DNA of 64,000 nt from Azomonas agilis (GTDB lineage: Bacteria > Pseudomonadota > Gammaproteobacteria > Pseudomonadales > Pseudomonadaceae): the NCBI RefSeq assembly GCF_007830255.1, contig NZ_VLKG01000002.1:248001-312000 (forward strand), in the 5' to 3' direction. Positions 45,833 to 59,689 of the stretch are shown here, in pieces; the stretch's first letter is position 1, and each line of letters opens with the position of its first letter. The position numbers and the translations under genes were made by a program. The notes under the pieces were generated by a model. It was not told where the DNA came from. It was given only the letters and a program-made list of their open reading frames with translations, and searched no databases.

Positions 45833-46467
45833 GTGGCCCGGAGCGCATCACCTTAGCCATGACCGGCGCTTCTGGCGTTCAGTACGGTCTGCGTTTGCTG
45901 GATTGTTTAGTGCGTGAAGATCGGGAAGTGCACTTCCTGATCTCTAAGGCTGCGCAATTGGTGGTGGCAACCGAAACTGATGTGCGCTTACCCGCCAATC
46001 CCCAAGCCTTGCAAAGCTTTCTCACCGAATACACGGGCGCAGTCTCGGGACAGATTCGGGTGTTTGGCAAAGAGGATTGGATGGCTCCGCCCGCATCCGG
46101 TTCGAGCGCACCCTCGGCTATGGTGGTGGTACCTTGTTCGACGGGAACCCTGTCCGCCATTGCCACAGGAGCCTGCAATAATTTGATTGAGCGCGCCGCT
46201 GATGTGGCCCTAAAGGAGCGGCGCAAACTGATTTTAGTACCTCGGGAAGCACCTTACTCCAGCATTCATTTAGAGCACATGCTCAAGCTATCTAACTTGG
46301 GTGCAGTGATTCTGCCAGCTTCACCGGGCTTTTATCATCAGCCGCAGACCTTGGATGATTTGGTGGACTTTATTGTCGCCCGCATCCTCAATCAGTTGGA
46401 AATTCCCCAAGACCTGTTGCCACGTTGGGGAGAGCATCATCTGATTACGGGTGAGGGGGATGATTAA
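45829..46467 (+). CDS. ubiX: Flavin prenyltransferase UbiX
   Basis: 212 residues. UbiX joins dimethylallyl phosphate to FMN and makes the prenylated flavin cofactor needed by UbiD decarboxylase in ubiquinone synthesis. Motifs LAMTGASGVQYGLRLLD, VVVPCSTGTLSAIATG and LVPREAPYSSIHLEHM are diagnostic. It starts inside the mpl stop and overlaps the next gene by 8 bp. Confidence 0.96.
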   Translation: MSGPERITLAMTGASGVQYGLRLLDCLVREDREVHFLISKAAQLVVATETDVRLPANPQALQSFLTEYTGAVSGQIRVFGKEDWMAPPASGSSAPSAMVVVPCSTGTLSAIATGACNNLIERAADVALKERRKLILVPREAPYSSIHLEHMLKLSNLGAVILPASPGFYHQPQTLDDLVDFIVARILNQLEIPQDLLPRWGEHHLITGEGDD

Positions 46468-46756
46468 CCAGCGTGCATTCGTTGCCTTGCTGGTGCTGCT
46501 GTACGCTCTGTCAGGCTGCGCCAGCTTCCGCACCTTAGATGCCGCCAAACCAGGTAAGCCCCTGATTTATTCGGGTACTCGATTGGACTGGTACCATCTG
46601 AATGGCGGCTGTTGCCCTATGGATCGCTTTGGGGCTGAACCACCGACTTACGCCTTATTGGATTTACCCTTCAGTTTTGTGGCGGATACGCTGGCCCTTC
46701 CGGCAACTATTTGCGCTGAGTTAGGGCTAGGTTTGAACGTCAGCGGTGGCCTCTGA
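46460..46756 (+). CDS. YceK/YidQ-family lipoprotein
   Basis: 98 residues from the ATG at 46460, with GGTGAGG just upstream; an in-frame GTG at 46451 is possible. The signal FVALLVLLYALSGCASF has a lipobox (LSGC). The rest, with YSGTRLDWYHLNGG, PTYALLDLPFSFVADTLALP, matches the YceK/YidQ (DUF1375) family of short lipoproteins of unknown function. The 3' end overlaps the convergent cupin gene by 30 bp. Confidence 0.75.
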   Translation: MINQRAFVALLVLLYALSGCASFRTLDAAKPGKPLIYSGTRLDWYHLNGGCCPMDRFGAEPPTYALLDLPFSFVADTLALPATICAELGLGLNVSGGL

Positions 46757-49559: not shown

Positions 49560-50492
49560 ATGAGTGATCAACAGGATGTACGTCTGGCCCTTGGCGACAG
49601 TGCTGCGCGCCAGTTAGCCAATGCCACTAAGACCGTACCTCAGCTTTCCACCATCAGCCCCCGCTGGTTGGTGCACCTGCTGCAATGGACGCCGGTAGAG
49701 GCGGGTATTTTTCGTCTGAACAAGGTGAAAAACCCGCTCAACGTTCAAGTCGCCTGTTCTCAGCGCGACGAGGCCGTATTACCGCAAACCTTTGTGGATT
49801 ATGAAGATCAACCTCGTGAATATTTCCTGAATGCGGTTACCACCATTCTGGATGTGCACACCCGTGTTTCCGATCTGTACAGCAGCCCGCACGACCAAAT
49901 CCGTGAGCAACTGCGCCTGACCATCGAAACCATCAAAGAGCGTCAGGAAAACGAGCTGATCAACAACCCCGAATACGGTTTGTTGGCCAGTGTCGATCCG
50001 GCTCAGCGTATTTCCACCCTGACCGGTGCGCCTACCCCTGATGATCTGGATGAGTTGATCACCAAGGTGTGGAAAGAGCCCGCTTTCTTCCTCGCCCATC
50101 CGCTGGCTATTGCGGCCTTTGGTCGTGAGTGCACCCGCCGTGGTGTGCCGCCACCCACCGTCAGCCTGTTTGGTTCCCAGTTCCTGACCTGGCGCGGTCT
50201 GCCTTTGATTCCGTCGGACAAGGTACCGGTAGATGAGGAAGGCAAAACCAAGATTCTGCTGCTGCGTGTGGGCGATCAGCGTCAGGGCGTAATCGGTCTG
50301 TATCAGCCCGGTGTGGCCGGTGAGCAAAGTCCGGGGCTGTCGGTGCGCTTCATGGGCATCAACCGCAACGCCATCGCCTCCTACCTGATTTCTCTGTACT
50401 GCTCGCTGGCGGTACTGACGGAAGATGCGTTGGCCGTGCTCGATGACGTGGAGGTCGGAAAGTACCATGCCTACCCAGACACCTACCAATAA
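49560..50492 (+). CDS. Family 2A encapsulin shell protein
   Basis: 310 residues. I recognise the family 2A encapsulin (SrpI/MMP1-like) start ALGDSAARQLANATKTVPQL, and ISPRWLVHLLQWTPVEAGIF and YDQIREQL-like SSPHDQIREQLRLTIET; the fold is expected to be HK97-type. No cNMP-binding insert, as in family 2B, is present. The protein would assemble into a hollow shell. GGAG lies six bases before the ATG. The 3' end overlaps the cargo gene by 26 bp, so cargo and shell are probably co-translated. Position between the acetyltransferase and the cysteine desulfurase is diagnostic. Confidence 0.93.
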   Translation: MSDQQDVRLALGDSAARQLANATKTVPQLSTISPRWLVHLLQWTPVEAGIFRLNKVKNPLNVQVACSQRDEAVLPQTFVDYEDQPREYFLNAVTTILDVHTRVSDLYSSPHDQIREQLRLTIETIKERQENELINNPEYGLLASVDPAQRISTLTGAPTPDDLDELITKVWKEPAFFLAHPLAIAAFGRECTRRGVPPPTVSLFGSQFLTWRGLPLIPSDKVPVDEEGKTKILLLRVGDQRQGVIGLYQPGVAGEQSPGLSVRFMGINRNAIASYLISLYCSLAVLTEDALAVLDDVEVGKYHAYPDTYQ

Positions 50493-57484: not shown

Positions 57485-57772
57485 TTACTCAATCACCTTG
57501 GGCACCAAATAGAGGCCGTTTTCCACTGCTGGAGCAATAGCTTGATAGGCGGCGCGCTGATTGGTTTCCGTTACGGCATCGGCGCGTAAACGTTGTACGG
57601 CTTCCAGCGGATGGGCCAAGGGCTCAATGCCGTCGGTATTCACGGCCTGCATCTGATCGATCAGACCCAAAATGGAATTCAGGGTGGCGGTAGTGTGGGG
57701 CAGTTCAGCCTCATCCAGACCCAAGCGGGCCAGATGGGCGATCTTCTCCACTTCGGAGCGTTCAAGCGCCAT
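57485..57772 (-). CDS. gatC: Glu-tRNA(Gln)/Asp-tRNA(Asn) amidotransferase subunit C
   Basis: 95 residues, standard length. GatC wraps around GatA and GatB to hold the complex. [20 protein letters not shown] is typical. It is the first gene of gatCAB, and the gap upstream of it holds the divergent promoters toward mreB. Confidence 0.96.
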
Positions 57773-57989
57773 GAAAATGCTCTCCGTAGGGGCGTGGAAT
57801 AGGAACGAAAATAAGCTGCTACTTTATTGTGCGTGATTATGGGGGAAAAGCTCAAAGTCTGTGCAGGCTTAAGTGATCTTTAGACAGCCAATTGAGTGAG
57901 GCAAAAGCGCTGTGTGGGCTGTATAGGGCGCTCGTTCGGTATTTGTAAGGAATTTAAGAGGTCTCTAAACAAATTGGCATTGTCATTGC

Positions 57990-58003
57990 TTGATCTATAT
58001 CAA
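57990..58003. promoter_or_regulatory. Perfect FNR/ANR box
   Basis: TTGATCTATATCAA matches the FNR/ANR consensus TTGAT-N4-ATCAA without mismatch. The downstream gene on the plus strand is the small lipoprotein at 58173; on the minus strand it is gatC, 218 bp away. A promoter with this site near -41 would start transcription around 58038, where CAATAT at 58023 is a weak -10. Confidence 0.7.
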
Positions 58004-58172
58004 GAGTTAAGACAGGCTTTAGCAATATTGAAGCAGGTATTACTCAACTGAAGCTGCTTCGACGTTTGTTCTGTTGCGCTTTATGAGTAAAAAGCTTGAA
58101 TTTGATTGATCAAGATTACTTGACTTAACAATTTCACATTGACGTTTTAAGTTAGATGGTATGGAGATGTTT

Positions 58173-58328
58173 ATGAAACGCAGCGCTCGCTTGTTGACCT
58201 TAGTAGTTTTGGCCGCTTCTTTACACGGTTGCTCTCTGTGGTATTTCGACCACGATTACGATGCCGCCCAACACTCTGCCCAGTTGACTGAAAAAGCGAC
58301 TAAAGAGCGTACTTTAGCGGCGCTGTAA
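58173..58328 (+). CDS. 51-residue lipoprotein, unknown function
   Basis: 51 residues: MKRSARLLTLVVLAASLHGC then SLWYFDHDYDAAQHSAQ and a short charged tail. GGAG lies six bases before the ATG (ATGGAGATGTTTATG). The lipobox is LHGC (Cys20). After lipidation only about 32 residues remain. I do not recognise it. It follows the perfect FNR/ANR box by 169 bp, suggesting a role at low oxygen, by inference. Confidence 0.65.
   Translation: MKRSARLLTLVVLAASLHGCSLWYFDHDYDAAQHSAQLTEKATKERTLAAL

Positions 58329-59689
<1,361 letters not shown>

Follow-up and report, generated by a model that had tools for sequence, protein, structure and literature searches.

A 51-codon open reading frame (ORF) in the gap between gatC and mreB, downstream of an exact Anr/Fnr box, is best explained as a lineage-specific gene for a small lipoprotein under an Anr-activated promoter, on at low oxygen. 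We consider this explanation about evenly balanced between right and wrong. The features concerned are collected in Table 1, and the window referred to below is the whole 64-kb stretch of DNA that was analysed. As oxygen runs short, the Anr dimer in its [4Fe-4S] form would bind the box and recruit RNA polymerase to a weak -10 element about 20 bp downstream, with transcription starting near 58036-58038. The transcript would begin with a leader some 135 nt long, followed by the ORF, whose product would be lipidated at Cys20 to give a 32-residue mature peptide in the envelope, probably in the outer membrane; by the sorting rule for lipoproteins, a serine at position +2 directs them there. The mature lipopeptide would be an accessory factor of low-oxygen growth. 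Binding and activation by Anr, the start site, lipidation, location and role are all proposed from sequence.

Table 1 Features of the gatC/mreB gap and its flanking genes, in window positions.
Feature	Position	Strand	Basis
gatC, divergent upstream neighbour	57485..57772	-	gatC match in 115/119 family genomes
Possible gatC promoter, TGCACA-N18-CATAAT	57836..57865	-	sole promoter-like site of scan; 1 found vs 1.5 by chance; weak
Anr/Fnr box TTGATCTATATCAA, palindromic TTGAT-N4-ATCAA	57990..58003	+	exact motif match
Possible -10 hexamer AATATT, 4/6 to TATAAT, 20 bp after box	58024..58029	+	read from sequence; candidate
Predicted 5' leader, ~135 nt, no unusual fold	58038..58172	+	folding
Ribosome-binding site GGAGA before ATG 58173	58163..58167	+	sequence
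51-residue ORF, predicted small prolipoprotein, cleavage before Cys20 of LHGC	58173..58328 (stop included)	+	coding character
Hairpin just after ORF stop codon, without T-run	58333..58371	+	folding
Putative conserved mreB promoter TTGCCC-N17-TAGAGT, intact at far end of gap	58583..58611	+	motif in 107/110 gaps (own included)
mreB, downstream neighbour; mre cluster follows	58652..59689	+	ORF call, family comparison

The open reading frame and its predicted product

The ORF is the first plausible plus-strand gene downstream of the box. An alternative in-frame start at 58161 would lengthen the product to 55 residues, and the box lies within a GTG frame of 51 residues (57896-58051) that begins upstream of it. 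The synonymous codon choice of the ORF gives a score of 0.236, against a mean of -0.08 (sd 0.11) for spurious ORFs. This score is matched by none of 194 spurious ORFs of 40-120 residues lying inside genes and by none of 5000 third-base-matched synonymous versions, and it is higher than that of 88% of 324 fragments of presumed genes, these nulls gauging how far the ORF resembles genes of the window and not expression. Earlier tests of its coding character point the same way. The ORF looks like a real gene that is translated.

The predicted product consists of MKRSARLLTLVVLAASLHGC followed by SLWYF and further residues. By reading, its leader has a basic N-terminus (MKRSAR), a hydrophobic core (LLTLVVLAAS) and a cysteine after a small residue (LHGC). 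The residue at lipobox position -2 is a histidine, which lies outside the canonical residues of the PROSITE lipobox, the pattern being compared by reading; the product is therefore called lipoprotein-like and not a proven lipoprotein. The original prediction was that the first plus-strand gene after the box encodes a 51-residue lipoprotein. Its position, length and lipoprotein-like leader are as predicted, while the histidine at -2 weakens the lipoprotein call. A simple lipobox rule, widened to allow this histidine, picks out three ORFs of the window outside the chosen genes, the present one included. Another small lipoprotein-like ORF in the window, at 46451-46756 on the plus strand, has 101 residues and an ALSGC lipobox. 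The AlphaFold2 single-sequence model of the 51-residue product is one helix, residues 4-50 (pLDDT 80.2, pTM 0.38), which could fit a small membrane helix and says little.

Relatives of the product were sought in sets of genomes of increasing breadth, which overlap and include the own genome. Apart from the gene itself, all of these sets gave weak matches only. Matches at E ≤ 1 are present in 30 of 57 relatives; 398 family genomes gave 106 at E ≤ 0.1 (own genome counted), with a best E value elsewhere of 0.0055; and matches at E ≤ 0.003 were found in two of 390 order genomes and two of 369 class genomes. Those weak matches that were examined, namely the loci returned, were either similarities to the leader peptides of longer proteins or frames that are implausible. 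Frames of 251 residues (contig 9), 367 residues (L204) and 116 residues (L205) were rejected in this way, as leader similarity or unlikely frames. A relationship to a Pseudomonas tetratricopeptide-like lipoprotein family, with frames of about 140 residues, was also considered. The match to this family, one of those counted in the 106 family genomes, covers the signal peptide together with C..W..DH. A shuffle test of the mature sequence only, which covered L190 (mature start CTRWSLDHHLNNA) and left out three copies from the genus (L192-L194), gave P = 0.022; L190 is one sequence picked after a large search, and the relationship is therefore treated as chance. The own genome has a full-length copy of this family at another place.

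The product has no Pfam family at E ≤ 10, no PDB match at E ≤ 5 and no match in phages and plasmids at E ≤ 1, and none of 71 pattern matches in viral contigs was confirmed. NCBIfam and PHROGs each gave a single unconvincing match (a FliL model, E 0.1, and a family of unknown function, E 0.14). A diverged homologue could be missed, because a query of 51 residues has limited reach. It had been proposed to look for homologues that share the box upstream, and none occurs in the samples searched.

Alternatively, the ORF might be untranslated, or might encode a small membrane helix instead of a lipoprotein. This would agree with the lack of a detected homologue, the histidine at -2 and the one continuous helix of the model, whereas the codon choice, the GGAG site and the basic-hydrophobic-GC leader argue against it; we regard it as unlikely, though it deserves to be taken seriously.

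The box, its regulator and the transcript

The box was originally described as a perfect consensus match, and this is confirmed, at a level better than chance: TTGATCTATATCAA agrees exactly with TTGATNNNNATCAA, which is the published Anr motif in the portion of PMC6588701 available. It is the only exact site in the window, compared with expectations from base composition of 0.06 per window and 0.0016 in the 879-bp gatC/mreB gap. Sites with at most one mismatch to TTGATNNNNATCAA number nine in the window; in 100 shuffles their mean is 2.3 and their count always stays below nine. Seven of the eight imperfect, one-mismatch sites are inside long ORFs, the site at 50349 being outside, so that the excess is mostly non-regulatory, and a regulatory cluster of near-perfect boxes in the window was ruled out on the same grounds.

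The host genome (3.28 Mb in 22 contigs, Pseudomonadaceae) contains 12 exact boxes, against two for a reversed-pattern control and about three expected from composition, as derived from the window estimate. With ORFs judged by reading, seven of the 12 are inside long ORFs and five are intergenic. The latter are the present site and those near a nuoA-like gene, an NDH-2-like dehydrogenase, a pitrilysin-like protease and a glycine-rich protein, names that are tentative because the best family matches are all under curated cut-offs. The nuoA-like and NDH-2-like genes, which are neighbours of respiratory type, have the exact box upstream. A variant box, TTGATNNNNGTCAA, with a GTCAA half, shows no enrichment in the genome (8 sites, 9 for the control). 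Near-identical boxes in eight relatives comprise 11 one-mismatch sites, in six of the eight genomes, and no identical one; the ORFs listed around these 11 sites are of at least 100 residues, and small lipoproteins there would escape. The one-mismatch box at L181 is about 60 bp upstream of an ORF that we take to be hemN.

The genome encodes an Anr/Fnr protein (323.6 bits, curated cut-off 228), with cysteines at 15, 18, 24 and 117 and ETVSR at 204 in the recognition helix. In E. coli Fnr, the cluster cysteines and the E..SR helix are the residues that matter. There are three CRP/FNR-type matches in the genome, of which the Anr/Fnr protein alone is above the Fnr cut-off; the second is of CRP/Vfr type (360 bits, cut-off 266), and the third is a weak match that adjoins cowN. 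A Dnr-type second regulator was considered and rejected, none being above the Fnr cut-off in the genome.

It is worth adding that at L172 (G000 contig 13, 708-1376 and 1464-1766) a CRP/FNR-type regulator without the N-terminal cysteine cluster of Anr stands beside cowN, an arrangement suggestive of a CO-responsive pair that protects nitrogenase. The cowN gene, elsewhere in the genome from the region studied here, scores 62.6 bits (cut-off 48), in keeping with a nitrogen-fixing host, probably of Azomonas type.

The box is probably functional, a regulator site of the ordinary kind from which a young small gene is driven. It might instead be a chance match or an inert relic, the small gene being under other control or none, given that the box is unconserved, that some three exact boxes are expected in the genome and that seven of the 12 are inside genes. 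The expectation of 0.0016 in the gap and the genomic excess over the control, however, make this distinctly unlikely.

No sigma-70 promoter was found on the plus strand in a scan of 57700-58750, as for an activator-dependent promoter, and this was counted for the Anr reading. The spacing of 20 bp between the box and AATATT is compatible with Anr activation, for which the usual distance from box to -10 is 22 bp; a promoter of this class would have the box near -41.5 of its start site. Counted against the reading are the weak -10 and the 169 bp between the box and the ATG at 58173. The leader region (58036-58172) folds with z = -1.11, 24 of 200 shuffles being as good, and Rfam gave three matches in 57700-58750, all with E of at least 3 and far under gathering scores. 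The region following the stop codon (58329-58385) has a folding energy of -23.3 kcal/mol (z -2.22, equalled or bettered by 8 of 200 shuffles), and its hairpin could mark an end made by processing or linked to Rho, or could mean nothing. A simple scan of 57700-58750 for intrinsic terminators found no terminator-like site, compared with 1.3 in shuffles, and none of the type described for SicX (below). The hairpin without a T-run and the lack of an intrinsic terminator in the scan leave room for two other explanations, a regulatory RNA and read-through into mreB.

In the first of these, the Anr-driven transcript would be mainly a small regulatory RNA, formed by the leader and the start of the ORF, and the peptide would be secondary or inert. 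The available part of PMC10247376 provides the model for this: annotation had listed P. aeruginosa PA1414, which has an Anr motif, as a species-restricted gene for a small protein, and it acts as an RNA, SicX. The layout here is as described there, with a long leader. The strong codon bias of the ORF would, however, be dispensable in an RNA-only gene, and with the leader z value of -1.11, no Rfam match of note and no intrinsic terminator found, we consider such an RNA decidedly unlikely.

The gap between gatC and mreB

At each of the 110 loci compared, one in the window and 109 elsewhere (91 distinct gap sequences, some genomes entered twice), gatC and mreB stand next to each other and diverge. 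The gap is 879 bp in the window and 194-448 bp at the 109 other loci. Within the genus it is 248 bp in G001 and 227 bp in G003, both incomplete genomes and both without the box, and 398 bp in G002. None of the 109 other gaps has the exact box, so the site is not conserved at the locus; the closest has two mismatches, and the remaining 108 have at least three.

The best local alignments to relatives are at the mreB-proximal end of the gap, mainly from about 58573 on. The motif at this end would be the mreB promoter, a role assigned from its conservation. Against relatives, the middle of the gap (57860-58560) scores 27.2 on average and the first 88 bp 18.3; base-shuffled controls score 22.4 and 16.9, respectively. 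These scores are a little higher than the simple control but reveal no alignable homology, so that the box and ORF belong to DNA that was either inserted or has diverged beyond recognition. No second copy of the gap DNA was found in the own genome, and 297 other family genomes gave only matches of 26-34 bp, in five genomes (E 0.002-0.007). A mobile-element origin was rejected, there being only short or imperfect repeats in 57800-58600 and no second genomic copy. No examined relative has the box or the ORF at the locus, and evolution therefore supports neither. Three Pseudomonas gaps (L107, L110 and L121) carry extra segments, being 371, 446 and 448 bp compared with the common length of about 210 bp, and the gap thus seems tolerant of insertions.

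The original prediction placed the small gene next to the mre cluster. This is right as to position, mreB starting at 58652 with the mre cluster downstream, but a functional link finds no support, given the lineage-specific stretch and the separate conserved mreB promoter. Such a link would exist if the Anr promoter added low-oxygen transcription of mreBCD, the ORF being an upstream passenger. The ORF and mreB are on the same strand, 323 bp apart, with no terminator-like site between them in the scan; mreB nevertheless has a conserved promoter of its own, the transcript could end at the post-stop hairpin or through Rho, and the literature on mreB with FNR- or oxygen-dependent control, in the parts available, gave just fluoride in E. 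coli. We judge read-through to be quite improbable.

More doubtful still is a reading in which the gene is newborn in one nitrogen-fixing lineage, born under Anr or captured by it, and its transcript is both a low-oxygen regulatory RNA leader and the message for a 32-residue envelope lipopeptide. Unterminated transcription could then couple oxygen to mreBCD, and hence to cell shape.

Action of the box on the minus strand, on gatCAB, is very improbable, for although the site is palindromic and gatC is on the opposite side, it is 217 bp from gatC, gatCAB is housekeeping, a weak promoter is nearer to gatC, and the box is absent at other gatC loci.

Comparison with known systems

The type of site and the regulator are well known, and the gene under the box seems to be new: in the accessible parts of the literature on Anr with small lipoproteins, on Anr/CydR of Azomonas and Azotobacter, and on mreB with FNR, no such gene is apparent. 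If the Anr-activated lipoprotein gene is real, it would be a compact case, comparable to SicX in P. aeruginosa, in which a global oxygen regulator controls an orphan small protein of one lineage. It would show orphan small genes joining old regulons and would add one testable small envelope protein, while knowledge of Anr or of the mre genes would be unchanged.

The systems compared here are described from the portions of the papers that were available. PA1414/SicX of P. aeruginosa also has an Anr motif before a small, species-restricted Pseudomonadaceae gene, and low-oxygen induction has been shown for SicX (PMC10247376); the likeness is one of layout as described. It differs in that SicX functions in the 5' RNA and that the PA1414 figure legend has a Rho-independent terminator (PMC10247376), whereas the present ORF has coding character and the scan detected no terminator.

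The Pseudomonas Anr regulon (PMC6588701) shares with the present case the box TTGATNNNNATCAA, an orthologous regulator and other boxes before respiratory genes. Its core targets are different, including hemN, azu, gltP and oprG, and the words 'lipoprotein' and 'mreB' have no occurrences in the main text of PMC6588701. CcoM, a 36-residue cbb3 oxidase subunit of P. stutzeri, is likewise a very small protein that is important at low oxygen (PMC10433244). The likeness is one of description, and CcoM differs in being an oxidase subunit with no lipoprotein label in that source.

Finally, CydR (Fnr) of Azotobacter vinelandii is an Fnr-type regulator in a related nitrogen fixer (PMC2885672). It is described there as a repressor of cydAB and flhDC, whereas activation is suggested here by the position of the box; given this description, we infer even the sign of control in the present case.
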